From a virus: 43,272 nt of DNA. Positions within the stretch are counted from its first letter, which is position 1. Each line of letters starts with the position of its first letter. A model generated the notes under the pieces. That model made no database searches, had not been told where the DNA came from, and saw nothing but the letters and a program-made list of their open reading frames with translations. Positions 14,383 to 42,878 of the stretch are shown here, in pieces. The stretch is from positions 1 to 43,272 of IMG/VR virus record IMGVR_UViG_3300013006_000056; one strand, given 5' to 3'. The translations under genes and the position numbers were made by a program.

Positions 14383-15003
14383 ATGCTGAATCAGCAAAAT
14401 CTCACCAATCAGACGCCCATCTCCGATGTCTCAGATGCAAGCCGCATGCACTATCTGATCAGCGCCATGCTGACGCGGGTGCGCACGGCACAGCCGGTCA
14501 AGGTGCTCAGTGTGAGCAATGATGGCGGTGTCGCTACGGTCGGCACGGTGTCGATCCAGCCGCTGGTGAGCCAGATGGACGCCGAGGGCAATACCACGCC
14601 GCATGGCACGATCTACAATGTGCCGTACCTGCGCCTGCAGGGCGGCAGCAATGCGGTGATTCTGGACCCCAAGGTCGGTGATACTGGGATCGCAGTGTTC
14701 TGCGATCGGGATATCTCGCGGGTGAAGGTCGCCGCCAATAATGCACTCCCCGGTACTGCCATGGCAGCCGGTCCCGGCTCTGCGCGTAAGCATGATATGA
14801 GCGATGCGATCTACCTCGGGACGATCATCGGTTCGGCACCGACGACCTATGTGCAGGTCAATGACAGCGGCATTACACACGCTGCGCCTCTGGTCAACGT
14901 GACGAAGAATCTGGTGGTGGGCAATGGTGCGACGGGGTCTTTTACGGCGGCATCGGGTCAGATCATCACGGTCAAAGACGGCATTATTATTAATATTTCC
15001 TGA
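14383..15003 (+). CDS. Membrane-puncturing spike (Gp138 N-terminal type)
   Basis: The 206-residue protein has a short helical start, an OB-fold-like region with VKVLSVSNDGGVATVGTVSI and a VPYLRLQGGSNAVI stretch, then LDPKVGDTGIAVFCDRDISR, the signature of Gp138/gp45-type spikes. The last 70 residues are beta-rich and repetitive and probably form the trimeric spike tip. It pierces the outer membrane on contraction. It lies 16 bp after the hub gene. Confidence 0.8.
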   Translation: MLNQQNLTNQTPISDVSDASRMHYLISAMLTRVRTAQPVKVLSVSNDGGVATVGTVSIQPLVSQMDAEGNTTPHGTIYNVPYLRLQGGSNAVILDPKVGDTGIAVFCDRDISRVKVAANNALPGTAMAAGPGSARKHDMSDAIYLGTIIGSAPTTYVQVNDSGITHAAPLVNVTKNLVVGNGATGSFTAASGQIITVKDGIIINIS

Positions 15004-15011
15004 GAACTACC

Positions 15012-15401
15012 ATGAATCCACAAGGCGCTGGTCTGATCAATACGGCCTATTATGAGGGGCTGATCGCGCAGGTACAGGCGATAGAGAACTGTGATGCGCT
15101 GAATCAGGCGGTGACGACAATCTTTGCGTCGATACAGGCGGAGAAGACAGCCATCGAGCAGCAGATCGCACGCTATCAGCCGCTCTTGGCGTTGCTGACG
15201 CCGCCGACCACGCCCAATGCGGTGGTGGGCTGGGTGAGTAATTTTATCTCGCTGTATTTAACGCCGCAGATTCAGCCGTTCTATACCTATACCACGCAGT
15301 TGGCGACATTGGTGACAACGATTGAGCATCTGGTGTCGGAGATTGAGGCGGCGGCGGGGCGGATTCCGACGTGTCAGGTGGTGGTGCCGAGTTTGAGTTG
15401 A
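15012..15401 (+). CDS. Small baseplate-region protein, unknown
   Basis: The 129-residue protein follows the spike gene by 8 bp. It is mostly helical: AYYEGLIAQVQAIENCD, an AEKTAIEQQIARYQPLLALL amphipathic stretch that could be a coiled coil, and TTQLATLVTTIEHLVSEIEA. No family is recognised. A minor baseplate or assembly role is inferred from position. An alternative frame stays open past the stop to 15456 after a GGC-rich run, so a frameshift in this 3' end is possible but unproven. Confidence 0.6.
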   Translation: MNPQGAGLINTAYYEGLIAQVQAIENCDALNQAVTTIFASIQAEKTAIEQQIARYQPLLALLTPPTTPNAVVGWVSNFISLYLTPQIQPFYTYTTQLATLVTTIEHLVSEIEAAAGRIPTCQVVVPSLS

Positions 15402-15688
15402 GGAGTGGCGATAAGTTCAATAGTTCGATCATGGTGACGGGCGATAACACTGGTTAAGGCATGAATTGCATACATATACTCATGTGGCGTGCAGCAGAAG
15501 AGTCTAAAGCACTCTAATATTGGTTATGAGTCGATATCTAGACAATGAATGGATCACTAAGGATCTGATAAGAAATACTCTTGACTTTGTTACAAATTTA
15601 CACTTCTTTTTGTTAGGATATCTGAGATAGTCATTGAACAATGCTATTCTAAATTTAAGCTTTTAACTCGTTGCTTTGGTTGGATTTT
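15402..15688. other. AT-rich leader region of the three-gene cargo operon
   Basis: No gene is visible in these 287 bp. The composition shifts from GC-rich phage DNA to AT-rich DNA near 15,460, which marks the left edge of the inserted cargo. Two extended -10-like sites are present: TGTTAGGAT (15611-15619) and TGCTATTCT (15642-15650). Confidence 0.6.
15642..15650 (+). promoter_or_regulatory. Candidate extended -10 promoter of the cargo operon
   Basis: TGCTATTCT has the TGn motif directly before TATTCT (4 of 6 to consensus). It lies about 38 bp before the start codon at 15689. I see no good -35, which extended -10 promoters do not strictly need. Confidence 0.35.
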
Positions 15689-16477
15689 ATGAGTATTACA
15701 TTTGGAAACCCACCACTGATTGAAATTATCGTTGAGTTCCATTGGGTAGTAAAAAAAGACGATAGCATCCCCATCCCTCAATTTATTACTTCGGCTGAAT
15801 TTAATAAATACGTTACTAAATTTAGAGAGCTTTTAGGCACTGAAGCTCGTGAAGTAGACCATTTGGTTCCACCAATGTTGCCGATTCTCCAAGTAGGTAA
15901 CCCTGTTGTGAGATTCAAGAATTTTGGTGATGATGCTAAATTAGATGGTGCGGAAGGCATTATATATCATTTGGGCCCAGGTGTTTTTTCTGTGAATGGG
16001 GTTAGTAATTATAAATCTTGGGCTAGCTTCTCTGAACATGTGCAGAAGGGGCTTGATTATTTGCATCAAAGCTTTGGTGAAGATATTAAATATTTATCAA
16101 GTTCAAGAATTAGGTATATTAATCTTTTTGGTTCTAGATTTTTGGATGGTAAAGGCTCAGATGATTTTCTGAGGGAACAATTGGGTGTGGATGTTAGATA
16201 CCCCAATGCGATATTGTCGAGTTTGGCTTCTGAAAAAACTTTGTCATCTTTTGTTAAGATTGATATCCCTTTGGCAGATAAGCGCCAGATGATTGTTTTT
16301 TTGGGACCAAGGGATAATGATCCTGAAAAAAATGTGGTTTTGGATTCTACTATTGTAGATCCAAATGATATTGACTTTAGAACTGATCTGGTTATGAGTT
16401 CTTTAGCATATCTTAAGGATATTATTCATAATATGTTTGTCGAACTTACAAAATCCTTACATGATCGAATGAAATAA
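15689..16477 (+). CDS. TIGR04255-like protein, cargo operon gene 1
   Basis: The 262-residue protein resembles the sporadically distributed TIGR04255 family: NPPLIEIIVEFHW near the start and LSSSRIRYINLFGSRF in the middle match its typical opening (PPLvEvvfElrw) and its RYIN motif. The family has no established function. There is no signal peptide, membrane helix or obvious catalytic motif. The start is the ATG at 15689; a TTG at 15671 is possible. It is AT-rich, unlike the phage genes around it, is followed 12 bp later by gene 2, and the whole operon ends in a strong terminator. A defence or regulatory role is inference. Confidence 0.7.
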   Translation: MSITFGNPPLIEIIVEFHWVVKKDDSIPIPQFITSAEFNKYVTKFRELLGTEAREVDHLVPPMLPILQVGNPVVRFKNFGDDAKLDGAEGIIYHLGPGVFSVNGVSNYKSWASFSEHVQKGLDYLHQSFGEDIKYLSSSRIRYINLFGSRFLDGKGSDDFLREQLGVDVRYPNAILSSLASEKTLSSFVKIDIPLADKRQMIVFLGPRDNDPEKNVVLDSTIVDPNDIDFRTDLVMSSLAYLKDIIHNMFVELTKSLHDRMK

Positions 16478-16489
16478 GGGTGGATAGCT

Positions 16490-17191
16490 ATGCAACCATA
16501 TTTAGTTAATGTCGCGGGAAGAATTTGTGTTGATAATTTATCTTTTTCTACTCAGTATGGTGGTGGAGTGAGTGTATCCAAAATATTTGATGGGTGGTTA
16601 GGTAGAAAAGTAAACAATTACTATTGTGATAATAATATGGAAGCATCCCAGACCATTGCTACGCTATTTAATGGTTTTTCTTGTGAGCAGATTTATTTTT
16701 TGAATGGAAGTGCTTTTGAGTATGATTATTCAAAGGTACAGAGGAAAAATACTTTTTATTCTGTTGTTGATAAAAAGATGGGTATGGAACTTATTGACTC
16801 ATTTTCTATGCTAGAGGAAGATTGGGATAGTGAGGGGGCAAGGAAGATTAACGAGATAGTTATTTCTAATGCATTAAAAATATGGAGTCTTATTGCGAAG
16901 TATGGTTGCCTTCCTGAAATAAGTCCTATGCCGAATGGGGTTATATCTTTTGACTGGGATACATCGTTAGGTAGCGCTACTATAGAAGTTGGGAAGACTA
17001 AGTTTGTTTTTTATGCATATAATTCAAGAGAAACTATTTATACGGATAAAGGCGGAGTGCAAGATCTTTTAGAGAGAGCTGATGCTTTTATTAAAATCAT
17101 AAAAACTAATTTATACCCTTATAGTTTTTTTGATAAGTATGATGCGGCGAATGATGTAAGCTATTTGGGTGAATTTTCTTTAATGATGTAA
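16490..17191 (+). CDS. Unknown protein with WDSEGA motif, cargo operon gene 2
   Basis: The 233-residue protein starts after AAGGGTGG. Its central part has LEEDWDSEGARKINEIVISN, then PEISPMPNGVISFDWD. From memory this fits a widespread unnamed pattern (W-D-x-x-G-A ... P-x-I-x-P-x-x-x-G-x-I-x-x-x-W) found in proteins beside TIGR04255 genes; I cannot check it here. The C-terminus holds a predicted beta segment (GSATIEVGKTKFVFYAYNS) and a helix. No nuclease, NTPase or membrane motif is visible. The spacing to genes 1 and 3 (12 and 54 bp) indicates one operon. Confidence 0.65.
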   Translation: MQPYLVNVAGRICVDNLSFSTQYGGGVSVSKIFDGWLGRKVNNYYCDNNMEASQTIATLFNGFSCEQIYFLNGSAFEYDYSKVQRKNTFYSVVDKKMGMELIDSFSMLEEDWDSEGARKINEIVISNALKIWSLIAKYGCLPEISPMPNGVISFDWDTSLGSATIEVGKTKFVFYAYNSRETIYTDKGGVQDLLERADAFIKIIKTNLYPYSFFDKYDAANDVSYLGEFSLMM

Positions 17192-17245
17192 GCCGTTTGG
17201 GTGAAGTTTATTTTGGGATAATGTTTGGCTAAAAGATGAAGCGAT

Positions 17246-17728
17246 ATGTCTAATTGTTTTATTAAGAATGATATACCTGATGTGGAGTTGTTGGTCAGGC
17301 TGGCATGCTTTGATAATCAAGTTAATAACAAAAATAATCCAAAAATTGGTATGTTTAAGAGGCCTGATAATAAGGGTATATCATTGATTAGATTGTCGTA
17401 TGTTGGTGAAGGATTTATTTTTGAGAAAGGCGTAGAGTTGGCTGAAAAGTTAACACAAAGCTCAGGAAAATCCAAGGAGTTTAGAGGATATTTTGTTGTC
17501 AGTGCTGAAGCGATTAGGGCTAGTGATGAGTTTGGTGCAGTTGATGTTAAAGACTCTAGAGAGCCGCCACCAGATCATTACTGTGGGCATGCCGACATGA
17601 TATATTTATTCGATATTCCAGATATGGAAGAGGATGAACCATGTGGTGATAATGATTTTAATATAAGGATAAAGAAAATATCTCAAAACATTTTGAGTAA
17701 GATTTTGTTTTTTGAATATGTTAATTAG
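17246..17728 (+). CDS. Unknown protein with HADM motif, cargo operon gene 3
   Basis: The 160-residue protein contains FKRPDNKGISLIRLSYVGE, GYFVVSAEAIRASDEFGAV and PPPDHYCGHADMIYLFDIP. The conserved-looking H-A-D-[MI] after a Pro-rich turn reminds me of an unnamed family that accompanies TIGR04255 and WDxxGA proteins; this is recall, not a search. The C-terminus is acidic then basic and amphipathic. There is no signal or membrane segment. It is the last gene before the terminator at 17865 and is as AT-rich as its two partners. Confidence 0.6.
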   Translation: MSNCFIKNDIPDVELLVRLACFDNQVNNKNNPKIGMFKRPDNKGISLIRLSYVGEGFIFEKGVELAEKLTQSSGKSKEFRGYFVVSAEAIRASDEFGAVDVKDSREPPPDHYCGHADMIYLFDIPDMEEDEPCGDNDFNIRIKKISQNILSKILFFEYVN

Positions 17729-17864
17729 TCGCAGTAGAGAGCTCTTTTCTTTGTGCCTATATTGTAGGGTGAAAATCTATAACCATAATGTTTATCAAGT
17801 ATTTGTCAATGCAGGATTGTGGAGTAGCCTTGATTTTACATTATTAAGTTTCTTGAATTTGAGA

Positions 17865-17886
17865 AACCCGCTTCGGCGGGTTTTTT
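17865..17886 (+). terminator. Strong terminator ending the cargo operon
   Basis: AACCCGC (17865-17871) pairs with GCGGGTT (17876-17882) across a TTCG loop and six T follow. It ends about 20 bp before the gp25-like gene and marks the right edge of the AT-rich insertion. Confidence 0.9.
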
Positions 17887-17905
17887 ATTGCCCAAAGGAA
17901 ATCCC

Positions 17906-18268
17906 ATGACCATCAACCAAACCACGCTTTTACTCGATCAGACCGCTTGGGATCTGGTGCTGGATGCCCAAGGCAATATCGCGCTGGCAGGCGCGCCCTA
18001 TAGCATCGCACAGGATGTCGCAAGCGCCGTGCGCACCTTCCTCGGTGAGTGCTGGTACGACACATCGCAGGGCCTGCCGTACTTTCAGCAGGTCTTCGGC
18101 AAATATCCGCCGCTCAGCTATGTCAAGCAGCTCATTACCCAAGCCGCGCTGTCGGTCCCCAATGTCACGCAGGTCAAAGTGGTCTTTACCAGCCTGAAAA
18201 AACGCACCTTATCCGGGCAGATCCAACTGATCGACAGCGACGGACAGCAACTCGGAGTGAAATTCTGA
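17906..18268 (+). CDS. Baseplate wedge protein, gp25-like
   Basis: The 120-residue protein starts after AAAGGAAATCCC. It contains DVASAVRTFLGECWYDTSQG and LPYFQQVFGKYPPLS, the signature of small gp25-like/DUF2634 wedge proteins, which bind the sheath start and trigger contraction. The gene returns to the GC-rich composition of the phage. Its stop overlaps the next start (TGATG), the usual coupling of gp25-like and J-like genes. Confidence 0.75.
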   Translation: MTINQTTLLLDQTAWDLVLDAQGNIALAGAPYSIAQDVASAVRTFLGECWYDTSQGLPYFQQVFGKYPPLSYVKQLITQAALSVPNVTQVKVVFTSLKKRTLSGQIQLIDSDGQQLGVKF

Positions 18269-19497
18269 TGAGTAACGTACCCAGTATCCTCTGGACCCCG
18301 ACCGGCCCGCAACTGCCGCAGGAAACCGACATTTTCAACGGTGTGCAGGCGGATCAGAATACGGCATTTGGCGGTAACCTGAACTTGGGTAAATCCACGC
18401 CCCAAGGTCAGCTTGCGCAGAGCCTGACCGCGATCATCGGTGACAAGAACAGCCAGATCGCCAATATCGTCAACCAGATCAATCCCGACTATGCCGATGG
18501 CGCATTTCAGGATGCCATCGGGCGGATTTATTTCCTGACCCGGCATCCGGCGACCGCGACAACCGTCACGTGTACGTGTACCGGTTTGTCCGGGACTACC
18601 ATTCCCGATGGTAGTGGACCGCAGGGCGCTGCACGTGTACAAGACGCATCAGGCAATATTTACCTCTGCCAGACCGGTGGCGTGATCCCCGATTCAGGCA
18701 AGATAGAACTGCCTTTTGTTAGCCAGAACACTGGTCCGATTCAATGTCTGGCAGGCACAGTGACGACGATCTATCAGGCGATCCCGGGCTGGGATACGGT
18801 CACGAATCAAGACGATGGCAAGCAGGGCAATCTCGTCGAGAGCCGAGGGGACTTTGAGTATCGCCGTCAGCAATCGGTGGCATTCAACGCGCATGGCTCG
18901 TTGGCGTCTATCTATGCGGCGGTGTTTGCCTTGCCCGATGTGACCGATGTCTATGCGACCGAGAATGTGCTGGATGTGCCGATCTATGTCGGGACCACGG
19001 GCTATCGGCTTGCGCCGCATTCGCTCTATGTGGCGGTGGTTGGCGGTGAGCAGGATCAGATCGCCAATGCGATCTGGCAGAAGAAAGACGTCGGCTGCAA
19101 TACCAATGGCAGTACCTCGATGACTGTGCTGGATACGACGTACAGTTATCCGGCGCCATCCTACACGATCAGCTATGAGGCCCCGCCGGATACGCCAGTC
19201 AAGTTTGCGGTGCAGTTGGCGAACAATGGCACGCTGCCAAGTCGGGAGCTGCTGGAGCCGATGATCCAGAATGCCATCATCACGGCATTTTTGGGTCAGG
19301 ATGGCGGCTCGCGGGCGCGCATTGGCTCGACGATCTTTGCGTCGCGTTTCTATGCCGGGATTGCTGCGTTAAGTCCGACCTTTGAGATCCTGTCGGTGCT
19401 GGTTGGTCTCACTACGGCGACGCAGAACGCGGTGACGATGGGCATCGATCAGCACCCAACCATCAGTGCGTCCGACATCACTGTGATGCTGGTATAA
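18268..19497 (+). CDS. Baseplate J-like wedge protein (gp6/gp47-like)
   Basis: The 409-residue protein fits the Baseplate_J family: an N-terminal helical part, QINPDYADGAFQDAIGRIYF, a central beta region with AGTVTTIYQAIPGWDTVTN (the conserved I-P-G-W element), and GNLVESRGDFEYRRQQSVA, the family's R-x-R core. The ATG at 18268 overlaps the previous stop; a longer frame reaching back to 18049 lies inside the gp25-like gene and is not used. It forms the wedge that links the hub to the fibres. Confidence 0.8.
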   Translation: MSNVPSILWTPTGPQLPQETDIFNGVQADQNTAFGGNLNLGKSTPQGQLAQSLTAIIGDKNSQIANIVNQINPDYADGAFQDAIGRIYFLTRHPATATTVTCTCTGLSGTTIPDGSGPQGAARVQDASGNIYLCQTGGVIPDSGKIELPFVSQNTGPIQCLAGTVTTIYQAIPGWDTVTNQDDGKQGNLVESRGDFEYRRQQSVAFNAHGSLASIYAAVFALPDVTDVYATENVLDVPIYVGTTGYRLAPHSLYVAVVGGEQDQIANAIWQKKDVGCNTNGSTSMTVLDTTYSYPAPSYTISYEAPPDTPVKFAVQLANNGTLPSRELLEPMIQNAIITAFLGQDGGSRARIGSTIFASRFYAGIAALSPTFEILSVLVGLTTATQNAVTMGIDQHPTISASDITVMLV

Positions 19498-26094: not shown

Positions 26095-26170
26095 GGGTTG
26101 TTAGCTCAGTTGGTAGAGCAGCGGACTCTTAATCCGTAGGTCGATGGTTCGAGCCCATCACAACCCACCA
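26095..26170 (+). tRNA. tRNA-Lys (anticodon CUU)
   Basis: The 76-base gene folds as a full cloverleaf: acceptor GGGTTGT with ACAACCC, D arm GCTC-AGTTGGTA-GAGC, anticodon arm GCGGA-CTCTTAA-TCCGT, T arm GATGG-TTCGAGC-CCATC, discriminator A and encoded CCA. The anticodon loop gives CTT, hence Lys. It lies 98 bp after the endolysin and 14 bp before the integrase stop. It is the likely integration site of the element to its right. I found no second copy of its 3' end in the window. Confidence 0.95.
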
Positions 26171-26180
26171 TATAAAATAA

Positions 26181-26208
26181 AGGCTTACACGATGTGTGAG
26201 CCTTTTTC
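26181..26208. terminator. Terminator between tRNA-Lys and integrase
   Basis: AGGCTTACAC (26181-26190) pairs with GTGTGAGCCT (26194-26203) across a three-base loop and a T run follows. The stem overlaps the stop codon of the reverse-strand integrase. Read backwards it is followed by TTTATTTTATA, so it can end both genes. Confidence 0.8.
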
Positions 26209-27222
26209 TTTTTTGGGCGGTGCCGAAAACGTGTCACCTAGCAATGTGCCGACCACTTCTGCATGCTGCGACAGTTGAGCTGGTGCCAGATGCGCATAGC
26301 GTCTGACCATCTCTACAGATTTCCAACCGCCCATTTCCTGCAAGTTATAAAGCGGCGTACCATTCTGCACCAACCAGCTTGCCCAAGTGTGTCTAAGGTC
26401 ATGCCAACGGAAATTGGTAATCCCTGCACGCTTTAAGGCATTCCGCCACGCTTTCGTATTGATTTGCCTGATCGGTTTCCCAGCATAGGTAAATACATAC
26501 TCGGCGTGCTTGCTCACTTGGCGCTTCAGTAAATCCACAGCTAACTGGCTTAAAGAGACGTGGATATCTTCTGCCCCTTTGGCCTGATCACCATGTATCC
26601 ATGCCGTTTTACGTGCTAGATCGACTTGTTGCCAAGTCAGTTTCAGCACATTGGCTTGGCGTAAGCCTGTGGCAAGGGCAAAAAGGGTGATGTCTTTTTG
26701 ATGGTTTGGCAGTTGATCAAGCAGAGTTCTAGCTTGATCAGGAGTGATCCATCGGACGCGCCGTTTTTGCTCTTTGTACATTCTCACTTTCGGTGCTTTA
26801 TCGATCCATTCCCATTCATCACAGGCTTTGCGTAGGATAGATCGAATCAGGGCCAGATACCGATTTGCCGTCGAACCGCTGGATTCCCGCTTTTTGAACT
26901 CACCAATTGCAGTGATTTCATCTCGCGTGATTTCAGTCAGAATCCTTCCGCGTAAGAACTGCTGTAACCAAGACAGTTTGCGGATATCCTCTTGGTGTGT
27001 GCGCTTATGCTCCGTCTCCTGCAGCCAGCGATAGCCTGCCTGATCCCATGTATAGCGAGGTTTCTCACCTAGCTTATGCACCCGCCAACATTCTGCTTTC
27101 AGCTTGTCGTGGAACTCTTGCGCTTCGATTTTGTTGTTTGTTCCAGTAGTGCGTCTAATTCGCTCACCATTTGGCGAGGTAAAATCGACCCACCACGTAT
27201 TTCCGCGTTTTGTAAGTGACAT
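26185..27222 (-). CDS. int: Tyrosine recombinase/integrase
   Basis: The 345-residue protein carries all visible catalytic parts: R188 (ATGLRQANVLKL), H274-x-x-R277 (FRWHDLRHTWAS), W300 and Y309 (VRRYAHLAP). It has an Arg/Lys-rich N-terminus (MSLTKRGNTWWVDFTSPNGE), as in phage and island integrases that bind arm sites, and a SAM-like region near 60-140. It ends beside tRNA-Lys, which implies integration at the tRNA 3' end. It overlaps the excisionase-like gene by 124 bp. Confidence 0.9.
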   Translation of the reverse strand: MSLTKRGNTWWVDFTSPNGERIRRTTGTNNKIEAQEFHDKLKAECWRVHKLGEKPRYTWDQAGYRWLQETEHKRTHQEDIRKLSWLQQFLRGRILTEITRDEITAIGEFKKRESSGSTANRYLALIRSILRKACDEWEWIDKAPKVRMYKEQKRRVRWITPDQARTLLDQLPNHQKDITLFALATGLRQANVLKLTWQQVDLARKTAWIHGDQAKGAEDIHVSLSQLAVDLLKRQVSKHAEYVFTYAGKPIRQINTKAWRNALKRAGITNFRWHDLRHTWASWLVQNGTPLYNLQEMGGWKSVEMVRRYAHLAPAQLSQHAEVVGTLLGDTFSAPPKKEKGSHIV

Positions 27223-27431
27223 TGTTTTAACTCCTTTGGGTGTGTCACTTGCAACGCTTGCCGAGGACTAGCATAGTGCGACCGTACATATTCGGCAAGA
27301 TCCACTTCGAGGAAGACCCAAGACTTTCCAGGCTTGGCACCAGGGATGAGTCCTAACTTTGCGCGACGGCGTAATTCTTCAGGGTGCATTCTGAGAAAGG
27401 CTGCGGCTTGTGTCAGGTTTAAGCTCTGCAT
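27099..27431 (-). CDS. Excisionase-like HTH protein
   Basis: The 110-residue protein begins with LNLTQAAAFLRMHPEELRRR and KLGLIPGAKPGKSWVFLEVD, the AlpA/excisionase-type winged HTH (MerR-like) that reads an element's own DNA. It has a Ser/Arg/Lys-rich tail that overlaps the integrase start. It likely controls excision. AAGAGGTGGG precedes its ATG. It could instead be a simple regulator of int. Confidence 0.7.
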   Translation of the reverse strand: MQSLNLTQAAAFLRMHPEELRRRAKLGLIPGAKPGKSWVFLEVDLAEYVRSHYASPRQALQVTHPKELKQCHLQNAEIRGGSILPRQMVSELDALLEQTTKSKRKSSTTS

Positions 27432-27491
27432 TGCATCCCACCTCTTGGGTAGCAGTGAAACGTAAACCTGATTCTGGAGAAACGATACATA

Positions 27492-27505
27492 TTTGACCGG
27501 ACAAA
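27492..27505. promoter_or_regulatory. Imperfect palindrome near the excisionase start
   Basis: TTTGACCGGACAAA is symmetric except for one pair. It lies about 60 bp upstream of the reverse-strand excisionase gene and about 165 bp before the forward gene at 27671. It could be an operator; nothing proves it. Confidence 0.3.
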
Positions 27506-27670
27506 TAGCAGAGGATTTGGCGAGAGCAATTAGTATTATCCAGATGGATAAATGTGAAAAGTCCGTCTATTCTTTGGTCTTGGAAGTGTGCCTGCTTGGT
27601 AATATTGGACTGTTATCTGAGTGCAGATCATCAATCTACCAATTCACATACGTCAGTCTGGAGAGGCAGT

Positions 27671-28399
27671 ATGCCAGAATCATTGATACTCAATGACTTC
27701 AAGTGGGCATTTCGCATTGTATTTGACGACTGGCGGAAACACAGGCCAAAGCGGGTTCGAGATACACTGCCATCAGGCTTTACCTCGCCTAGGCTCCGCT
27801 ATATACGTAAAGTGGCGTGTATGCGTGCGGCGCTTCAGGAAAGTAGGATAATCGAGTGCACTCAGTGGACGCAGTCCGATCTTTCTGGCAACAAGATCGA
27901 GGAGGGGCAGGTTCCTTTTCCTGCAACTGCAGAATATGCCTGTAACACATGCAAGCACCCCTGTGTCACACACGCAGATCTAACTCGTGAGCTTGGTTTA
28001 ACAGTTGAAAAAGAGAGCTTTTGTGAACGGACTTGGCGTCGGTATCTGAATGCAAAGCAACCCATGCCCGTTGATCTGTTCCGGCGAGTAATCGCCAATG
28101 CCTTTGCACTTGACTGGCTCAGTGCTCATCAGGCATTGGCAATCTGGAAAGAAATTGATGAGTTGATGGTCGTTAGAAAAAGCATGGTTGCATTCAGTCA
28201 ACGCGCTGGTGAAAGAAAAGATTTCGGGCTTTCCAAAAATATCGACGCATCAAAACGCGATATTGATAACGAATTATTTAAGCAAATCAGGTTACTTGAC
28301 CATGAGTGTATTCATGTACTTCATCAGCGTTCTATGGATCAGAGGCTGACGGTCGAAAATCGGTCGCGATTCAAGAATATGATTTTTAGAATGCGTTGA
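27671..28399 (+). CDS. Unknown protein with CNTC motif
   Basis: The 242-residue protein starts after GGAGAGGCAGT. It contains CNTCKHPCVTHADL (possible metal-binding cysteines), a basic helical part FCERTWRRYLNAKQPMPVDL that looks like an HTH-type DNA-contact region, and a charged C-terminus rich in Lys/Arg. The open frame extends upstream to 27554 but lacks a ribosome site there. No family is recognised. A regulatory role in the island is possible. Confidence 0.55.
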   Translation: MPESLILNDFKWAFRIVFDDWRKHRPKRVRDTLPSGFTSPRLRYIRKVACMRAALQESRIIECTQWTQSDLSGNKIEEGQVPFPATAEYACNTCKHPCVTHADLTRELGLTVEKESFCERTWRRYLNAKQPMPVDLFRRVIANAFALDWLSAHQALAIWKEIDELMVVRKSMVAFSQRAGERKDFGLSKNIDASKRDIDNELFKQIRLLDHECIHVLHQRSMDQRLTVENRSRFKNMIFRMR

Positions 28400-28439
28400 A
28401 TAGAGGGACTCTCGAGACCAGACGACTGTATAAGAATGA

Positions 28440-28670
28440 TTAACCCTCATCCTCTAGGATCGTGATTTTGATCCTGGCATTTAGTGCAGAAAGCCAATCT
28501 TGTAGCTCAATCACATCCAGACGTCTCTCCAGATTCTCGACCCGCCAGACATAGTTCTGCGGCTTATCCAATTTTTCGGCAAGCCCGGTCTGAGTCACAT
28601 CCTGTAACTTCCTGAGTTGTATCAAGTCTGAGATGAGAACCCGATATCGAGGGTCATGGATTGTGCTCAT
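28440..28670 (-). CDS. XRE-family HTH regulator
   Basis: The 76-residue protein has a classic Cro/CI-type HTH: VLISDLIQLRKLQDVTQTGL, AEKLDKPQNYVWRVENLERR and DVIELQDWLSAL. It probably binds the repeat operator in the divergent gap to its left on the reverse strand, which is shared with the forward gene at 28812. The start at 28670 is the best choice; an upstream reading is possible. Such small regulators commonly control island or toxin-antitoxin genes. Confidence 0.75.
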   Translation of the reverse strand: MSTIHDPRYRVLISDLIQLRKLQDVTQTGLAEKLDKPQNYVWRVENLERRLDVIELQDWLSALNARIKITILEDEG

Positions 28671-28707
28671 AGCCCAATATGAGGCACTTCCCATCAATAC
28701 ATCAAAA

Positions 28708-28736
28708 TGATATAAATACACCAATTTGATATAATT
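28708..28736. promoter_or_regulatory. Divergent operator/promoter with two direct repeats
   Basis: TGATATAAAT (28708-28717) and TGATATAATT (28727-28736) are spaced 19 bp apart. The second overlaps a perfect -10 (TATAAT, 28730-28735) for the rightward gene. The XRE protein is the natural candidate to bind here. Confidence 0.5.
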
Positions 28737-28811
28737 TAAATGTTGGCTTCTCGGGCTACTGGATCTACAAGCTCAGTCCTCGAAGTAACGTGGGAAAATG
28801 GAGAGGCGTCG

Positions 28812-29327
28812 ATGCAAACCGCTTTTGAAAAACTGACGACTAAAGTCATTTTGATGATTTGGCTTTTTGGGTCTATTGGCTTGAGCGTATTCGTACCGCA
28901 ACACCCATTCTTTTTAATCTTTATTCTTAGCTATCCGTTGCATCTGATCTATCGCTGGAAAGTGCTGACACCAAGATACGCAGATATGCTCAGGACAAGA
29001 GCTGGGGCTATCGCCGTGGCTCATGGGTCGTACCACCCAGATTTCGTCATGATTGATGGCTCGAAAGGTCGCTACTACCTAGGATTTGATATGACCCAGA
29101 ATGTTCTGGTGATCATTCATGATTTGCTCAAGATCGAGAAGGTATACAGGGTATCCGATGTGACGAACTGGAGTATGACCAATCAGCTATTGACCATCTA
29201 CTTGAGCCGTCTGGAGTGCCCTGTCGTCTGTATTTATTATGATACCAATAGGTTCCACTATCTTTCCGGCAGAATGCATCAGGTGACGAACTGGGTAAAG
29301 TCGCATGATTATGCGCCAATAATCTAA
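28812..29327 (+). CDS. Membrane protein of unknown function
   Basis: The 171-residue protein has two membrane helices at about residues 12-30 (TTKVILMIWLFGSIGLSVFV) and 34-48 (HPFFLIFILSYPLHLIY), then a soluble domain. The latter contains HGSYHPDFVMIDGSKGRYYL and IYYDTNRFHYLSGRMHQVTN. A GGAGAGGCGTCG ribosome site fits 28812 best, although the frame runs upstream to 28740. The function is unknown. It is transcribed away from the XRE gene and could be an effector it controls. Confidence 0.65.
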   Translation: MQTAFEKLTTKVILMIWLFGSIGLSVFVPQHPFFLIFILSYPLHLIYRWKVLTPRYADMLRTRAGAIAVAHGSYHPDFVMIDGSKGRYYLGFDMTQNVLVIIHDLLKIEKVYRVSDVTNWSMTNQLLTIYLSRLECPVVCIYYDTNRFHYLSGRMHQVTNWVKSHDYAPII

Positions 29328-29357
29328 TGTGCATCATCAACGCCTCGGAGTCAAATC

Positions 29358-29561
29358 ATGAAAAAACCATTGTCTCGCGCGTATCACGATACTGTTGCGA
29401 TGTTTGCTGTGGATAATATTCGTTTTTCTGAGCAAGGTTTGGAGCTACTGGCAGCGGTGGATCGCGGTGAGATAAGCCGTGAGAGAGCGATTGAAATGAT
29501 CGAAGCCCGAGCAAGGGCTTATGCACAAGCATCTGCAAATATGCGATCAGAAAAAGAATAA
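29358..29561 (+). CDS. Small VbhA-antitoxin-like protein
   Basis: The 67-residue helical protein contains VDNIRFSEQGLELLAAVDRG and EISRERAIEMIEARARAYAQ, which resembles small VbhA-type antitoxin proteins of Fic toxins as I recall them. No Fic gene is next to it in the window, so it is at most an orphan. It follows the membrane protein gene by 30 bp and may share its operon. Confidence 0.5.
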   Translation: MKKPLSRAYHDTVAMFAVDNIRFSEQGLELLAAVDRGEISRERAIEMIEARARAYAQASANMRSEKE

Positions 29562-30632
29562 TTCGACCATCCTGGCATTCGGGATGAACATGAACCACGG
29601 TGATCCTGCTTTTTTTAGGAGAGCGTATTGCGTTCCTTGTTGGTGATCGCTTTTACAAAAAAACAGAACAGATCATCAACTCGTTGTCTTTTCTCGGCAA
29701 ACAGAATTATATAGAGAAGCTACATTTTTTATCGTTTCTTCTGATATGAGAGCAACCAATCATTGTTCAGCAGATTCTCGAGCTTTTCTGCAATTCGTGT
29801 ACAAAACTCAATAGGATTTTCCGCTTTGATGTCATTACCTTACAAACAACTTCACCTGTTTTGTCGTCGCTCGTACACCGCCATGATCAAATCGACACGC
29901 TAAGTGCTGAACTGTAACTTCAACTTTATATTCAGTAATCACACTAAAAGCGACCACTCAGCAAAATCTTAATGTGAATTTCTTTTTCAGAGAATGAATG
30001 TGTAATGCATCTGATTGTTGTGTTCAGATCTGCAGAATCGACAGGACAAGGTAGTGTTTGGATTCCCGCCGTGAACAGGCTGGCATCCAAACGGGATTGC
30101 GCGTAACTCAGTTTCTTGCTTTTATCCAGCATCGCTGTCTTAGGATCAGCATTTCACATTCATATCGACGATGTGTGTGCAGATGCGCAGAATTGGCAGG
30201 ACAAGGTAGTGTTTGCATCGCCGCCAGGAATGGGTTGGCATTCAAACGAGATGTATCCAGTCGTTTCTCTCCCTACACATCCTTTCAACCTTGTTCAGGG
30301 CAAGCCCCGAAACCCCATAAGTTATAAGCAGAAAAAACATGAACCATTGTCAGAGCTGACGTGGGTATTGTGACGACATGCTTATGAGTACCAATTGCAT
30401 TCATGGAAAACATTTGCTGTGTGAAGCGAAGCTATTCAGAGTCAAGAAGGGTTGAAGTACTCAATTATTTACGGTGCTAGCATTAGCAATGCTATTTGAT
30501 GAATCTCTACAATACATTATTGATCTATCAGCTTAAGTATGCGGTAAGCAAGTATGGTATCTTTCATCACACCTGCCTTTCTGCAGGTTAGTTGAATGCA
30601 ATTACGTAGCTGAATTTATTAGGGAAGCTGTC
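29562..30632. other. About 1 kb without intact genes; decayed coding remnants
   Basis: No gene in this stretch is convincing. It contains a 72-bp direct duplication (30026-30097 and 30181-30252). The second copy reads WQDKVVFASPPGMGWHSNE and the first reads RQDKVVFGFPP then a stop, so both look like relics of tandem paralogous genes. An open frame at 30116-30373 (85 codons) surrounds the second copy but has no ribosome site. This is probably the decayed junction between the integrase-linked genes and the defence island. Confidence 0.6.
30026..30252 (+). repeat. 72-bp direct repeats, 155 bp apart
   Basis: Copies lie at 30026-30097 and 30181-30252 with no gaps, and share GGACAAGGTAGTGTTTG. The first is frame-broken. 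They are fragments of a repeated coding sequence rather than an attachment site. Confidence 0.7.
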
Positions 30633-32336
30633 ATGAACCCCATAGAACAACAATTTTTCAATGACCTCGAAAAGAAACTCTGGAGTGCCGCAGATAAGCT
30701 GCGCGCCAATCTTGACGCTGCCGTATACAAACACGTGGTACTGGGTCTGATCTTCCTCAAGTATGTTTCTGATGCTTTTGAGGAGCGTCAAAAAGAACTG
30801 CGAGAGCAGTTTCAAAACCCTGCCGATGACTACTATATGGCACTAGAAGACTACGCTGATGATTATCAAGGCCATCTTGCTGCCGAATTAGAAGTACGCG
30901 ACTACTTTATCGAAAAGAATGTGTTCTGGGTGCCGCTGGAGGCGCGTTGGCAAACTTTGCGCGACTGCGCGCAGCTTCCGCCGAAATCTCCGCTGCCTTG
31001 GAATAAACCCGGCAAAGACGAACCGGAAGAAATGCGCAGCGTTGGCTGGCTGATCGATAACGCTATGGAGGCTATTGAGCGAGAGAATACCAAGCTCAAA
31101 AATGTACTAAATAAGGACTTTGCGCGCACTCAGATCGAAAGTTACAAGCTTGCTGACCTGATCGCGCATTTCTCTGACGCCAATTTCAGCCAGCCTAGCT
31201 ATAACGGGCATCCCTTAAGCCTGAAGAGTAAGGATATTCTAGGTCATGTCTACGAGTATTTCCTTGGTCAGTTTGCTTTGGCTGAGGGCAAGAAGGGCGG
31301 TCAGTATTACACCCCCAAAAGTATTGTGACGCTGATCGTGGAGATGCTGCAGCCTTTCAAAGGTCGTGTTTATGATCCTGCGATGGGCTCGGGAGGCTTT
31401 TTTGTGCAGAGCGAGGAGTTTATCGAGCAGCATGGCGGTGCAGTGGCCGCTGGTAAAAAAGGCCAGATCAGCATATACGGGCAAGAAAGCAACCCTACCA
31501 CATGGCGCTTGGCTGCAATGAATATGGCGATTCGGGGTATCGACTTCAATTTTGGTGGTCAGCCAGCCGACACGATGCTTAACGATTTACATCCAGATTT
31601 GCGTGCCGATTACGTGATGGCTAATCCCCCCTTTAATATGAAAGAGTGGTGGAGTGCTAAGCTCGAGAATGATTGGCGTTGGCTGGTTGGTACCCCTCCG
31701 CAAAGTAATGCCAACTTTGCATGGTTACAACACATGTTTTCCCATCTGGCTCCAACTGGCAGTATGGCGTTGTTGTTAGCCAATGGGTCTATGAGCAGCA
31801 ATACTAATAATGAAGGCGAAATTCGCAAGCAGCTCATCGAGCGAGACTTTGTAGAATGCATGGTGGCGCTGCCGGGGCAGTTGTTCACAAATACGCAAAT
31901 CCCGGCCTGTATCTGGTTCCTGACCAAAGACAAAGCCAACGGCTTTAACTTTGACAAGAAGAAACGCGACAGACGCGGTCAGTTTCTGTTTATCGATGCG
32001 CGCCAACTGGGCTATATGAAAGACCGTGTGCTGCGTGACTTCAGACTGGAGGATATCCAGAAGGTCGCTGATACTTTTCATGCATGGCAGCATGGTGTGG
32101 GTTATGAGGATTTGCCGGGCTTTTGTTATTCAGCATCACTGGATGATATCCGCAAGCATGAGCATGTGCTTACACCGGGGCGTTATGTGGGTGCGAAAGA
32201 GCAGGCGGAGGATGGAGAGCCCTTTGCAGATAAGATTGCACGACTAACAGCACAACTGGCAGAGCAATTCACGGAGAGCGCAAGATTGGAGAGCGAAATC
32301 AAGATGAATCTTGCAGGGTTGGGTTATGCAATTTAG
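30633..32336 (+). CDS. hsdM: Type I methyltransferase subunit HsdM
   Basis: The 567-residue protein begins with the HsdM N-terminal domain (LWSAADKLRANLDAAVYKHV, residues about 15-35) and contains the AdoMet motif DPAMGSGGFFV near 249-259 and the catalytic NPPF near 331 (YVMANPPFNMKEWW), as in N6-adenine methylases. A GGGAAGCTGTC ribosome site precedes it. With HsdS it methylates the host DNA; with HsdR it forms the restriction complex. It overlaps hsdS by 11 bp. Confidence 0.95.
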   Translation: MNPIEQQFFNDLEKKLWSAADKLRANLDAAVYKHVVLGLIFLKYVSDAFEERQKELREQFQNPADDYYMALEDYADDYQGHLAAELEVRDYFIEKNVFWVPLEARWQTLRDCAQLPPKSPLPWNKPGKDEPEEMRSVGWLIDNAMEAIERENTKLKNVLNKDFARTQIESYKLADLIAHFSDANFSQPSYNGHPLSLKSKDILGHVYEYFLGQFALAEGKKGGQYYTPKSIVTLIVEMLQPFKGRVYDPAMGSGGFFVQSEEFIEQHGGAVAAGKKGQISIYGQESNPTTWRLAAMNMAIRGIDFNFGGQPADTMLNDLHPDLRADYVMANPPFNMKEWWSAKLENDWRWLVGTPPQSNANFAWLQHMFSHLAPTGSMALLLANGSMSSNTNNEGEIRKQLIERDFVECMVALPGQLFTNTQIPACIWFLTKDKANGFNFDKKKRDRRGQFLFIDARQLGYMKDRVLRDFRLEDIQKVADTFHAWQHGVGYEDLPGFCYSASLDDIRKHEHVLTPGRYVGAKEQAEDGEPFADKIARLTAQLAEQFTESARLESEIKMNLAGLGYAI

Positions 32337-33723
32337 GCCATTTAAGGAGCTTTTTGAAATTCCTCTTCGGAATGGTTTGACGAAGCCTAAAGCGGTACGT
32401 GGTGTAGGCACTAAAATGGTCAATATGGGAGAACTATTTGCAAATCCGCGTATCATCAACATTTCGATGGATCGTGTTCCCCTTAGCGTAGCTGAACGCA
32501 ACTCATCCTTGCTGGTAACAGGAGACCTTTTGTTTGCGAGACAGTCATTGGTTTTGGCTGGAGCAGGAAAATGTTCCATTTTCGTTGATGATGAGGAGGA
32601 CGTCTGCTTTGAGTCACATATAATTCGTTGCCGACTCAACAACGATCTAGCCAATCCCCATTATTACTTCTATTTTTTCGGCAGTTCTGTTGGTCGTAAG
32701 TTGCTTGAATCCATTGTTGAACAAGGTGCCGGAGCGTCAGGCATTCGAGGGTCAGACCTAGCTGAGCTTCAGGTGCCATGGATTGACCCGCAGGTTCAAA
32801 GGGCAGTCGTAAAAATCCTTCAAAGTCTAGACGACAAAATCGACCTCAATCGCCGCATCAACCAAACTCTCGAAGCCATGGTACAAACCATCTTCAAATC
32901 TTGGTTTGTCAATTTCGATCCGGTCAAGGCTAAGATTGCAGCCATTCAGGGCGGTCGCGACCCGCTAAGCGCAGCCATGAGCGCCATCAGTGGTAAGTCC
33001 GATGCTGAACTAAATGACCAGTTGGGTAAGCAATACGACGAACTCGCGGCTATAGCTGAGTTGTTTCCATCAGCAATGGATGGCGAAATCCCTCAAGGCT
33101 GGAACTATAAGACACTAGCAGAACTCACTTACAAAATTGGCAGTGGAGCAACACCGCGCGGTGGTAAAGAAGTTTACTGTGAAGCGGGTGTCGCACTTAT
33201 TCGTAGCCAGAACGTCTACGACAGCTTATTTGTCTGGGAGGGCTTAGCTCGTATCTCTGACGAAGCGGCAGCACAATTAAAAGGTGTCACGGTTCAGGAA
33301 GAGGACGTTTTATTGAACATTACTGGAGCATCGATTCTGCGTACTTGCGTTGTAGAGCCAGATGTCTTGCCTGCCCGCGTGAATCAACATGTCTCCATAA
33401 TTCGTACTAAATTGGACATCCCACCGCGCTTTGTTCACATGTATTTGCTTCAACCAGAGGTTAAGAGCTATTTGATAGGTTTGAATGCCGGTGCATCACG
33501 TGAGGCGATTACCAAAGGGCATATTGAGTCGCTTACACTGTTAACACCTAATACTGAGTTACTTGTGGCCTTTCGCGCAATGACCGACTCTCTTTTTCAG
33601 CAAATACAGGTCCAAACCCGACAAATGAGGGTACTTGGTGAATTACGCGATACTCTTATTCCGAAACTTCTATCTGGTGAATTAAACATTAACATGACCA
33701 CAGAATCAGAAGAAGGTGTGTAA
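32326..33723 (+). CDS. hsdS: Type I specificity subunit HsdS
   Basis: The 465-residue protein has the two-target-recognition-domain layout: TRD1 (residues 1-150), a conserved helical spacer (RAVVKILQSLDDKIDLNRRI, NQTLEAMVQTIFKSWFVNFD), TRD2 from about 250 to 420 (starting at IPQGWNYKTLAELTYKIGSG) and a second helical spacer (RQMRVLGELRDTLIPKLLSG). It sets the DNA target, which is bipartite; the exact sequence cannot be read from here. The ATG at 32326 overlaps the hsdM stop. Its stop overlaps the SIR2-like gene's start by one base. Confidence 0.9.
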   Translation: MQFRPFKELFEIPLRNGLTKPKAVRGVGTKMVNMGELFANPRIINISMDRVPLSVAERNSSLLVTGDLLFARQSLVLAGAGKCSIFVDDEEDVCFESHIIRCRLNNDLANPHYYFYFFGSSVGRKLLESIVEQGAGASGIRGSDLAELQVPWIDPQVQRAVVKILQSLDDKIDLNRRINQTLEAMVQTIFKSWFVNFDPVKAKIAAIQGGRDPLSAAMSAISGKSDAELNDQLGKQYDELAAIAELFPSAMDGEIPQGWNYKTLAELTYKIGSGATPRGGKEVYCEAGVALIRSQNVYDSLFVWEGLARISDEAAAQLKGVTVQEEDVLLNITGASILRTCVVEPDVLPARVNQHVSIIRTKLDIPPRFVHMYLLQPEVKSYLIGLNAGASREAITKGHIESLTLLTPNTELLVAFRAMTDSLFQQIQVQTRQMRVLGELRDTLIPKLLSGELNINMTTESEEGV

Positions 33724-34883
33724 TGGATATCAAGAAGCTTCGCGAAAACAAGCTGATCGTGGACAAGGTCGAGGAGGCCTTGCAGGCGGCATACTCCTCC
33801 AACGAAGAGTTCAATGCTGTTCTAGATGACGTTGTGCCGCTGTCCTTTAAAGGCCTCAGAGACCAAGAGCATGAATATCTTATCAAGGTGAGTGAAGCCC
33901 TTTACTGGGTAGAGCGAGACGCCTATCTTGATGAGTTGGACTATTGGGAAGGACGGCAGCAAATTGATCAGCACGAAGCCGCAACCGCTTTCATAAAGCA
34001 ATCCGACCAGCAAGCGGTGTTTCTGGATTTGGTGGATGCGATTCGTCTTGGACGCATTGCCCCGTTTGTCGGAGCAGGTCTTTCTAAGTCATGTGGCTAC
34101 CCAATGTGGGGTGAGGCTTTGCGCAAAATCGCGCAGAAACTCAATGGATTGGGTGTGCAGGACATTGAGCCCCTGATGGCGCAATATGAATATCTGCAAG
34201 TAGCACAAGTGCTACACGATGCGGCATCGGATCAGGTAAGGAATTTTATCAAGACTGAATTCCGCCAACGGGCTGGCGCAATCACTGGTCCTGTCCTGTT
34301 ATTGCCTGAACTGGCACAAGGATGCATTGTTACTACAAATTTTGACTCGGTGATTGAAGATCTTTTTCAGCAACGTGAACATGCTTTAGATGGGTATATG
34401 TATGGAACGCAGCCCGGCAACGCATTTGTGCAACGGCTATTACGCGGGGAGCGATGCATACTGAAGCTGCATGGTGATGCTCGGCAAGAAAACACTTATG
34501 TCTTTACTCAGGCGCAATATCAAGCAGCCTACGGTGAGTCACTTTCTTTTCAAAACCAGTTGCCACGCGCTCTACGGCAAATTTTCATCAGCCATTCACT
34601 GCTATTTCTAGGATGCAGCCTTGAGCAGGACAAGACGCTCGATTTGTTCAAATTGGTAGTTGGCGAGGCTGCGTTTGAAATCCCGGATCACTTTGCACTG
34701 TTAAATGAGCCAGCTACTGCTCAAGAACGTGCAAGGAAAGAAGCCCGGTTGCTACAACTGAAAATTCGACCACTCTGGTATGCAACACCCACGGATGAAA
34801 ATGGCAGGCCGGATCATGGCATGCTAGAACAAATCCTCAAACTCGCTATTGCGGTTGCGCGCAGACAGGTAGCGTTTGAATGA
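33723..34883 (+). CDS. SIR2-like domain protein inside the hsd operon
   Basis: The 386-residue protein has a helical N-terminal 100 residues, then a SIR2-type fold: FVGAGLSKSCGYPMWGEALR from about residue 115 (NAD-binding GAG-x-S), TTNFDSVIEDLF near 204, ILKLHGDARQENTYVFT near 247 (the conserved H of LHGD) and FLGCSLEQDKTLDL near 297. These features match SIR2 proteins of anti-phage systems that deplete NAD. The C-terminal 70 residues are unlike the domain. The gene overlaps hsdS and the Abi gene, so it is expressed with them. NADase activity is predicted, not shown. Confidence 0.85.
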   Translation: MDIKKLRENKLIVDKVEEALQAAYSSNEEFNAVLDDVVPLSFKGLRDQEHEYLIKVSEALYWVERDAYLDELDYWEGRQQIDQHEAATAFIKQSDQQAVFLDLVDAIRLGRIAPFVGAGLSKSCGYPMWGEALRKIAQKLNGLGVQDIEPLMAQYEYLQVAQVLHDAASDQVRNFIKTEFRQRAGAITGPVLLLPELAQGCIVTTNFDSVIEDLFQQREHALDGYMYGTQPGNAFVQRLLRGERCILKLHGDARQENTYVFTQAQYQAAYGESLSFQNQLPRALRQIFISHSLLFLGCSLEQDKTLDLFKLVVGEAAFEIPDHFALLNEPATAQERARKEARLLQLKIRPLWYATPTDENGRPDHGMLEQILKLAIAVARRQVAFE

Positions 34884-35839
34884 AGCCCCTCAAACCTTGG
34901 CGTTCGTTCGCAGACCAACTGCAACAATTGCAAACTAGAGGTTTGCAAGTCGAAAATCCAGTCGCAGCCCTCGATTACCTAGAGCGCTTGGGCTACTATC
35001 GTCTGAGTGGCTACTGGTATCCGTTTAGAGCTATCGACCTAGCCGCATCAGCTGCTCAGGGCAAAGCAGTACGCCTAGACGCCTTTACGCAAGACAGCCG
35101 GTTTGAGGATGTGGTGCGTCTCTATGTGTTCGATAAAAGGCTACGCCTGCTGGCGCTCGATGCATTAGAGCGTATTGAAATGGCGGTGCGTGTGGATGTA
35201 GCCCACCTGTTGGGGCAGCGCGACCCTAGTGCTCATGAGAATCCGGCATGTTTTCACGGCAATTTTGCGAAGAAGCTGATCACCACAGGGCCGGATAAGG
35301 GAAAAACTGCGCATCAGGTCTGGCTGAATAAATACCAAAACCTGCTGAACCGGGCCCGCAAAGAGCCATTTGTGGTACACCATCTGCAACAGTATGGCGC
35401 ATTGCCAGTCTGGGCTGCGATTGAGGTCTGGGATTTCGGCCTGTTGTCTAAACTTTTTGCGGGCATGCAATATGCAGATCAGCAAGCAATTGCCGCCAAA
35501 TATGGTGCGCCGAACGGCCAAGCTTTCGGCCAATGGCTGAGAAGTTTGAACTTCATCCGCAATGTATCCGCACATCATAGCCGTCTGTGGAATATTAACA
35601 TTCTAGAGTTGTCGCCATTGCCGCAGGCTTGGCCAGCAGCGCTTAACAACGCTCGGCCATTTTTTTACTTTTGTTTGATGCAGCAGTTGGTGAAGGTTAT
35701 TTGTCCGAGTTCGCGTTGGGGAACACGTTTCAAAGCCTTGCTGGCAGATGATTTTCCCGACATAACCAATCAACAGATTTCGTTAGCGGATCTAGGGGCC
35801 TTCGCTGGCTGGGAACGATGGCTGTTATGGTCATCATGA
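34880..35839 (+). CDS. Abi_2 family abortive infection protein (AbiD/AbiF-like)
   Basis: The 319-residue protein fits the Abi_2 family. It starts PLKPWRSFADQLQQLQTRG, with ALDYLERLGYYRLSGYWYPF near 30-50 and RLYVFDKRLRLLALDALERI near 80-100, and contains RNVSAHHSRLWN near 227-238, the R-x4-H HEPN ribonuclease motif. Such proteins kill or halt the infected cell by cutting RNA. Its start overlaps the SIR2 gene (ATGA). It lies 128 bp before hsdR, so the operon may have one promoter or two. Confidence 0.85.
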   Translation: MKPLKPWRSFADQLQQLQTRGLQVENPVAALDYLERLGYYRLSGYWYPFRAIDLAASAAQGKAVRLDAFTQDSRFEDVVRLYVFDKRLRLLALDALERIEMAVRVDVAHLLGQRDPSAHENPACFHGNFAKKLITTGPDKGKTAHQVWLNKYQNLLNRARKEPFVVHHLQQYGALPVWAAIEVWDFGLLSKLFAGMQYADQQAIAAKYGAPNGQAFGQWLRSLNFIRNVSAHHSRLWNINILELSPLPQAWPAALNNARPFFYFCLMQQLVKVICPSSRWGTRFKALLADDFPDITNQQISLADLGAFAGWERWLLWSS

Positions 35840-35967
35840 TAGAGCAGAAATGAAAACCGACGCGTACACAGAGTGCAGAGGCGTCGGTCATATTACGCAA
35901 TATTATAGCTTCAATACCCAATCGAGTCAAGTTAAGGGGGCTATCATGAGGCACAAGGAATTTTGTC

Positions 35968-38900: not shown

Positions 38901-39117
38901 TGATGAGGTGTTGAAAAAAATAGCTATCGAAATTACCGAAAAACTGCGCGCCAGCACCACAGTGGATTGGCAGGTGCGAGAGAGTGTACGTGCTAAATTA
39001 CGCATTTTGGTGCGTCGATGCTTACAGAGGTGGAAGTATCCACCTGACCAACAAGCTGATGCTGTGGAGCTGGTGCTGAAGCAAGCCGAGTCACTCTCGA
39101 ACGAATGGTCGCAATAA
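35968..39117 (+). CDS. hsdR: Type I restriction endonuclease HsdR
   Basis: The 1049-residue protein has the normal HsdR length and order. The nuclease motif D...ELK is at about 139-155 ([18 protein letters not shown]), Walker A at about 316-324 ([11 protein letters not shown]), DEAH at about 422 ([11 protein letters not shown]), and GFTGTPI follows. Helicase motif VI is at about 680-690 ([17 protein letters not shown]). It pulls DNA and cuts it far from the HsdS target if unmethylated. It lies in the same direction as hsdM and hsdS but is separated from them by the SIR2 and Abi genes. Confidence 0.95.
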
Positions 39118-39491
39118 ATGGGTTGACCAATTAAAGAAGCTAAAAACAGGTGATTTTAAGCCAGAGCATACAGGACAGCTGAATTTCTATTTAAGCGCAG
39201 TCGATACTCAGATCAAAGCAGAGTTGGATCAGCCGACGATAGGACGGCTCTTGTGCAAGACGCGAAATAAGATCGTGGGGGAGTATGCGTTACGCGATAA
39301 CAGTAAACCGATCGGTGTGGCGGAGTATCAGTTGGCTCAGGCATTACCTGCGGACTTGGAGGGACAGTTGCCGTATTGAGCGGATTGAGCAGGAGCTGTT
39401 GGTGGATTTGGTTGGTGATGAATGGCGTGAGCAGAATTCTGATTTGATCTGTGGAGCCAACTCCGCGGAAGCACTGTTGGCGCGGATTTAA
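39118..39491 (+). pseudogene. DUF1016 (YhcG-type) PD-DExK nuclease remnant
   Basis: The frame at about 39130-39378 encodes a C-terminal piece with FKPEHTGQLNFYLSAVDTQI and KIVGEYALRDNSKPIGVAEY, which clearly matches the DUF1016/YhcG nuclease family. A one-base shift then breaks it at 39376-39380, and the other frame continues IERIEQELLVDLVGDEW to a stop at 39489. The first two thirds of the gene are missing. Such genes often sit in type I operons. Confidence 0.85.
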
Positions 39492-39526
39492 GTTGAGCGT
39501 AAGACAAACTCCAAGAGCAAAGTTAA

Positions 39527-42795: not shown

Positions 42796-42878
42796 TGTAG
42801 ATATAGGAATCAAAAGCATCTATTGTCATCAGCAATGACTAGAAGCGCATTGTGCCAACAGGAGCTAATGACCCTATT

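Follow-up and report, generated by a model that had tools for sequence, protein, structure and literature searches.

Three adjacent genes in the tail module of a virus record differ sharply in base composition from the baseplate genes on either side, and the question that they raise is what such genes do in a prophage. A first-pass annotation had proposed that they are inserted cargo and a candidate undescribed defence system. This proposal was followed up in the window, that is, the whole 43,272-base virus record IMGVR_UViG_3300013006_000056, where the cassette and its surroundings are laid out as follows.

14383..15003, +, V-like phage baseplate protein, left anchor of the insertion site (Pfam xxxxx_N, E 8e-6; homologues in relatives adjoin W and J)
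15012..15401, +, 129-aa ORF of phage-like GC (0.563), last phage-type gene upstream of the cassette
15402..15688, +, AT-rich leader (GC 0.362) holding TGTTAGGAT, a weak promoter candidate
15689..16477, +, gene 1 (g1), TIGR04255 family protein of 262 aa (family profile and AF2 model)
16490..17191, +, gene 2 (g2), 233 aa, with a C-terminal domain (WDxxGA) akin to that at the C-terminus of PDC-M32A
17150..17213, +, 32-bp tandem duplication at the 3' end of gene 2
17246..17728, +, gene 3 (g3), 160 aa, relative of PDC-M32B, with conserved E14, R18, S46 and H115
17864..17887, +, intrinsic terminator common to cargo-free phage relatives
17906..18268, +, W (gp25-like) phage baseplate protein, right anchor of the insertion site
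18268..19497, +, baseplate J-like protein, the query with which 43 phage relatives were fetched

The GC contents of genes 1, 2 and 3 are 0.356, 0.335 and 0.342, with GC3 values of 0.27-0.30, whereas the flanking baseplate genes have GC contents of 0.56-0.58 and GC3 values of 0.68-0.73, so that the description of three forward, AT-rich genes amid GC-rich baseplate genes holds.

Family membership and conservation of the three genes

Gene 1 scores 50.7 bits (E 2e-13) against TIGR04255 over positions 4-252 of the 252-position model. Because membership was decided by a full-model score above the curated cut-off of 30 bits, the protein is a true member of the family that it had been said to resemble. 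The family is annotated in NCBIfam as 'sporadic, function unknown', and our literature search returned no paper naming it. Genes 2 and 3 match no family in Pfam, NCBIfam or PHROGs. Nevertheless, profiles of TIGR04255-adjacent genes, built without the window sequences as a guard against circularity, detect both of them (59.0 bits, E 7.5e-18, for gene 2; 25.0 bits, E 2.3e-7, for gene 3), in agreement with the first-pass suggestion that the motifs WDSEGA of gene 2 and HADM of gene 3 occur in neighbours of TIGR04255 genes. Their counterparts in locus L046 also align with them (E 7e-19 and E 6e-5, respectively).

When the proteins of the window served singly as queries, searches of viral contigs, genome contigs, phages and plasmids gave almost nothing, and entry to the family was provided by their sole lead, a Pantoea plasmid prophage, in which a TIGR04255 gene and then two hypothetical genes stand at the lysis/terminase boundary. 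Genes 2 and 3 give no BLASTP match to these Pantoea partners, and the homology is therefore visible only through intermediates and profiles.

In a sample of 398 Pseudomonadota genomes, 32 TIGR04255 loci (in 30 genomes), 29 loci of the g2 family and 25 loci of the g3 family were counted. All three genes are adjacent at 14 loci, in the order g1-g2-g3 at every one, and a g2 relative adjoins g3 at 23 of the 25 g3 loci. The homologues are thus frequently, not rarely, found together, and the idea that the three genes belong to one set is well founded. The same holds in viral contigs with gene 1 relatives, where g2 is present in 10 of 10 and g3 in 9 of 10 (L158 was not resolved), although three of the ten contigs (L161-L163) represent one near-identical element, which leaves about eight independent viral elements. 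The trio also occurs in one Pseudomonas MAG and one Acidobacteriaceae MAG, and the divergent first gene of L134 is still TIGR04255-like by profile comparison (probability 94%). Further positions of the trio adjoin integrases, lie behind the gpD tail gene or stand beside an Abi_2 gene. The cassette therefore recurs at unrelated sites of unrelated prophages, and the three genes form a single mobile cassette, an accessory cargo of temperate phages that is also kept in bacterial defence islands.

The first gene is not always needed, because some g2-g3 pairs (L125 and L127) have no detectable g1. These pairs, together with the restriction-embedded M32 form described below, suggest that g2 and g3 are the core and that control is supplied by differing first genes or domains. 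In L133 (1474-3155), a g2-type domain is fused behind TPR-like repeats and is followed by M32B and then by a gene reading as MNT/HEPN-type; by reading, this fusion is another control domain on the g2-g3 core.

Association with defence genes and relation to PDC-M32

The surroundings of TIGR04255 genes were compared with PADLOC models, using 119 neighbour proteins (the cassettes excluded) and 119 control proteins encoded on the same contigs at a distance of about 100 kb, or of 55 and 71 kb where two contigs were shorter. The neighbours, drawn from 20 TIGR04255 loci, match 227 models at E 1e-10, as against 25 for the controls, a difference that is qualitative but large, since the counts include redundant models, mix all TIGR04255 subtypes and rest on crude ORF calls. 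Matches among the neighbours include retron, Septu (PtuA), viperin, AbiE, type I restriction, PARIS AriA and PD-T4-6 components, whereas a single DpdF gene and helicase- or polymerase-like proteins account for most of those among the controls. The proposal of a candidate defence system is supported to the extent of this strong statistical association with anti-phage defence genes.

Several g3 loci without TIGR04255 have a g2-type gene upstream, and those tested proved to be PDC-M32A (E 3e-151) and PDC-M32B (E 2e-49). The PDC entries of PADLOC-DB v2 are phage defence candidates that were picked by 'guilt-by-embedding' and not tested (PMC10855318). By reading, three M32-type pairs directly precede hsdS genes, at least one of them directly behind the end of hsdM. 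In PADLOC, gene 2 matches PDC-M32A weakly (E 1e-3) and through residues 104-181 only, which correspond to the C-terminal domain, and so falls short of the 375-384 positions by which a full M32A protein is recognised. Gene 3 has no PADLOC match, M32B included, and its homology to M32B emerges only when the profile of the g3 family is used, by which M32B genes are retrieved (E 2e-8 to 3e-6).

The cassette and PDC-M32 are therefore alike in the C-terminal domain shared by M32A and g2, in the homology of M32B to the g3 family, in gene order and in their common link to restriction operons. They differ in that PDC-M32 has no TIGR04255 gene and that the N-terminal domain of M32A is unlike that of g2; moreover, g3 of the window and the tested g3 proteins of its operon type (type A, below) score nothing in PADLOC, and g2 scores weakly. 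Judged from the sequences, what is new with respect to PDC-M32 is the added TIGR04255 gene, the other N-terminus of g2 and a divergence beyond PADLOC detection. The word 'undescribed' has to be qualified by the distant relationship of genes 2 and 3 to a catalogued candidate system.

Partner genes and a possible mechanism

By reading, the arrangement found in the window (type A) is the commonest downstream of TIGR04255 in the sampled genomes. Pfam searches of 60 proteins encoded downstream of TIGR04255 identified PemK (3), PIN (2), HNH (2), Xre-like antitoxin HTH (3), HTH_3 (4) and DUF7689 (1), and TIGR04255 genes stand closely upstream of PemK, PIN and HNH genes in L092 (the PemK case), L085, L093 and L104. 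Successive genes in these operons are often coupled by overlaps or short gaps. A second operon type (L059, L066, L081, L101, L106 and L108) consists of TIGR04255, an HTH protein and a 'SHDCDL'-like protein of ~270 aa, and a third (L057, L060, L072 and L107) ends with a 'SNTCDMS'-like protein of ~190-210 aa; neither of these proteins has a Pfam family. In some operons, HEPN, HicA and NlpC/P60 effectors were suspected by eye (L074, L110, L090, L091, L054 and L105), but Pfam did not confirm them and they were not counted.

The reading that we prefer, while giving it slightly less than an even chance, is that the cassette is a three-part defence module resembling a toxin-antitoxin system, in which a built-in switch would set a toxin-like protein to work. 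What each protein does, what triggers the switch and what follows are inferred as set out here. By analogy, g3 would be the toxin-like effector, because sister operons have PemK, PIN or HNH genes in the same position, and g2 would be a neutraliser or adaptor that binds g3 and holds it inactive through its WDxxGA domain, because antitoxin-like genes occupy the corresponding position. The TIGR04255 protein would serve as a sensor or stabiliser that keeps the g2-g3 complex off. A product of an invading phage would engage or displace g1, so that g3, once g2 has gone, is free to stop the infected cell or the phage, and the prophage would thereby shield its host and itself from competitors. The resemblance to PemIK/MazEF and VapBC lies in the toxin-type genes that stand behind TIGR04255 in other operons, whereas g3 of the window falls into none of the known toxin families, PemK and PIN included.

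The PemK and PIN genes, and carriage on prophages next to integrases, would also suit a module of addiction or stabilisation, toxin-antitoxin-like and retained because a cell that loses it suffers, but without any function against phages. We consider this unlikely in view of the strong enrichment of the family among chromosomal defence genes and the presence of PDC-M32 relatives within restriction operons.

Predicted structures and conserved residues

The AF2 model of g1 (pLDDT 81, pTM 0.80, from 11 sequences) finds its best PDB fold matches in TATA-binding proteins (E 7e-4, probability 0.97-0.99, TM 0.24-0.41, rmsd 8-11 A). Helix-grip proteins rank lower, SecB is absent among the matches listed, and g1 has no sequence relative in the PDB, where searches with profiles of all three proteins returned nothing relevant. 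The model thus offers a weak hint of a TBP-like or helix-grip topology. It also raises a second alternative, in which g1 would sense nucleic acids by holding phage DNA or a DNA/RNA hybrid in its TBP-like saddle and would activate g2-g3 directly instead of stabilising an antitoxin. The rank of the TATA-binding proteins speaks for this scheme, but the TM scores are low and the deviations large, no nucleic-acid partner of g1 is known and helix-grip proteins also bind non-nucleic ligands, and on balance we regard it as improbable.

For the module with a switch that we prefer, the N-terminus of g2 is of interest. In a comparison across subtypes, the N-terminal 50 residues of g2 carry less charge than the rest of the protein (18.8% versus 24.5%; paired p 9e-6) and include more small residues (39% versus 31%; paired p 4e-7), a bias that was not seen at the N-termini of g1 and g3, and this composition hints at a flexible binding tail. 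As the tail is no more hydrophobic than the rest of the protein (31.5% versus 34.5%), the composition falls short of proof of an aggregation-prone addiction sequence, or of chaperone addiction in the strict sense.

These features allow a comparison with toxin-antitoxin-chaperone (TAC) systems. In CmdTAC, a phage capsid protein diverts the chaperone, degradation removes the antitoxin and the toxin is set free (PMC11618068), and in the M. tuberculosis TAC system an extension of the antitoxin makes it chaperone-dependent (PMC6377645). The cassette may work in a similar way, by analogy, with an effector, a neutraliser and a third protein that possibly holds the complex off and could be diverted by a phage product. 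It is not a TAC member, however, because g1 does not resemble SecB in the fold search; g1 also comes first in the operon, and the tail of g2 is N-terminal and not demonstrably aggregation-prone.

The model of g3 (pLDDT 74, pTM 0.72) has no fold match in the PDB or BFVD, and g3 has neither a sequence nor a fold match to any toxin. The first-pass annotation had seen no catalytic motif in the three proteins; this is correct for known motifs, but R18, S46 and H115 of g3, on predicted strands 1, 2 and 5, form an Arg-Ser-His set that is conserved throughout the family, and Arg, Ser-Val and His-Ala can also be read in M32B proteins. An ADP-ribosyltransferase or RES-like enzyme was considered because of the conserved Arg on strand 1 and Ser on strand 2 and was rejected, there being no invariant Glu and no fold match.

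A broader proposal is possible but rather doubtful, namely that TIGR04255 represents a new class of shared controller, built on a duplicated TBP-like or helix-grip fold and gating swappable effectors (PemK, PIN, HNH, HTH-linked and unknown ones such as g3) through a flexible tail of the middle protein, in a modular tripartite defence family present in ~1/13 of Pseudomonadota genomes and with a g3 of new chemistry. TIGR04255 is in any case the apparent common first gene of operons with swapped downstream effectors, in defence islands and at prophage cargo sites. If one member protects against phage, TIGR04255, PDC-M32 and many prophage cargo loci would be joined in one scheme, to which an effector of new chemistry might be added.

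Insertion site, transcription signals and the remainder of the window

Among the 43 phage relatives retrieved with the J protein, V and W could both be placed in 30. The gap between V and W is empty (96-292 bp) in 16 of these and is filled with other cargo of 1.3-2.2 kb in 14, and the junction is therefore a recurrent cargo site of this phage group, which supports the proposal that the three genes are inserted prophage cargo. By eye, the cargo of the L008-L039 relatives includes an Arc-type repressor together with an antirepressor-like gene, proteins of macro-domain and GNAT-like type, and predicted exported proteins. The TIGR04255 trio occupies the V-W site in none of the 30 relatives, and no homologue of the 129-aa ORF was found at that site in the phage relatives.

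Since some of this cargo, such as the predicted exported proteins, does not look like defence, the cassette might instead serve lysogenic conversion or superinfection exclusion with no toxin control, for example through a change of the cell surface. This is quite improbable, because g1, g2 and g3 show, to the eye, neither a signal peptide nor a membrane segment and because their relatives sit in restriction operons and defence islands. That the three are ordinary phage structural or morphogenesis genes is suggested by their location inside the baseplate cluster, but can practically be dismissed, given their foreign GC, the lack of a PHROGs family, their absence from the V-W site in 30 of 30 relatives, their occurrence in chromosomes and at other positions of unrelated prophages, and structure searches with g1 and g3 that returned no phage structural protein.

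The transcription signals ascribed to the cassette fared less well. The terminator is a real hairpin (-17.2 kcal/mol, z -4.1), but the same hairpin (AACCCGC-NNCG-GCGGGTT-TTTTATTG) precedes W in three cargo-free relatives (L003, L004 and L005), so that it is a pre-existing element of the phage junction that predates the insertion and does not belong to the cassette. The extended -10 sequence TGTTAGGAT (15611-15619), put forward as a promoter in the 287-bp leader, has no supported -35 and is no better than chance: a consensus scan gave 11 promoter-like sites where 10.3 were expected, and the leader has none on its + strand.

The copies of the duplication at the 3' end of gene 2 match at 28 of 32 positions and span the stop codon. 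As the period of 32 bp is not divisible by 3, the duplication alters the final residues of the protein; it also widens the g2-g3 gap to 54 bp and might affect the function of the C-terminus of g2 in the window.

The record also joins the prophage tail genes to a restriction island at 26095-43148, in which a tRNA gene and an integrase gene are followed by defence genes.

26095..26170, tRNA-Lys(CTT)
26185..27222, -, integrase
30633, HsdM
32311, HsdS
33723..35839, SIR2-like and Abi_2-like genes, as read by eye
35968, HsdR
39527, McrB-like AAA protein with DUF7225
41434, McrC

A direct repeat of the tRNA-Lys end was sought elsewhere in the window and not found. The SIR2-like gene (RIAPFVGAGLS) and the Abi_2-like gene (PLKPWRSFADQLQQLQTRGL), which lie between hsdS and hsdR, are putative defence genes embedded in the same contig.
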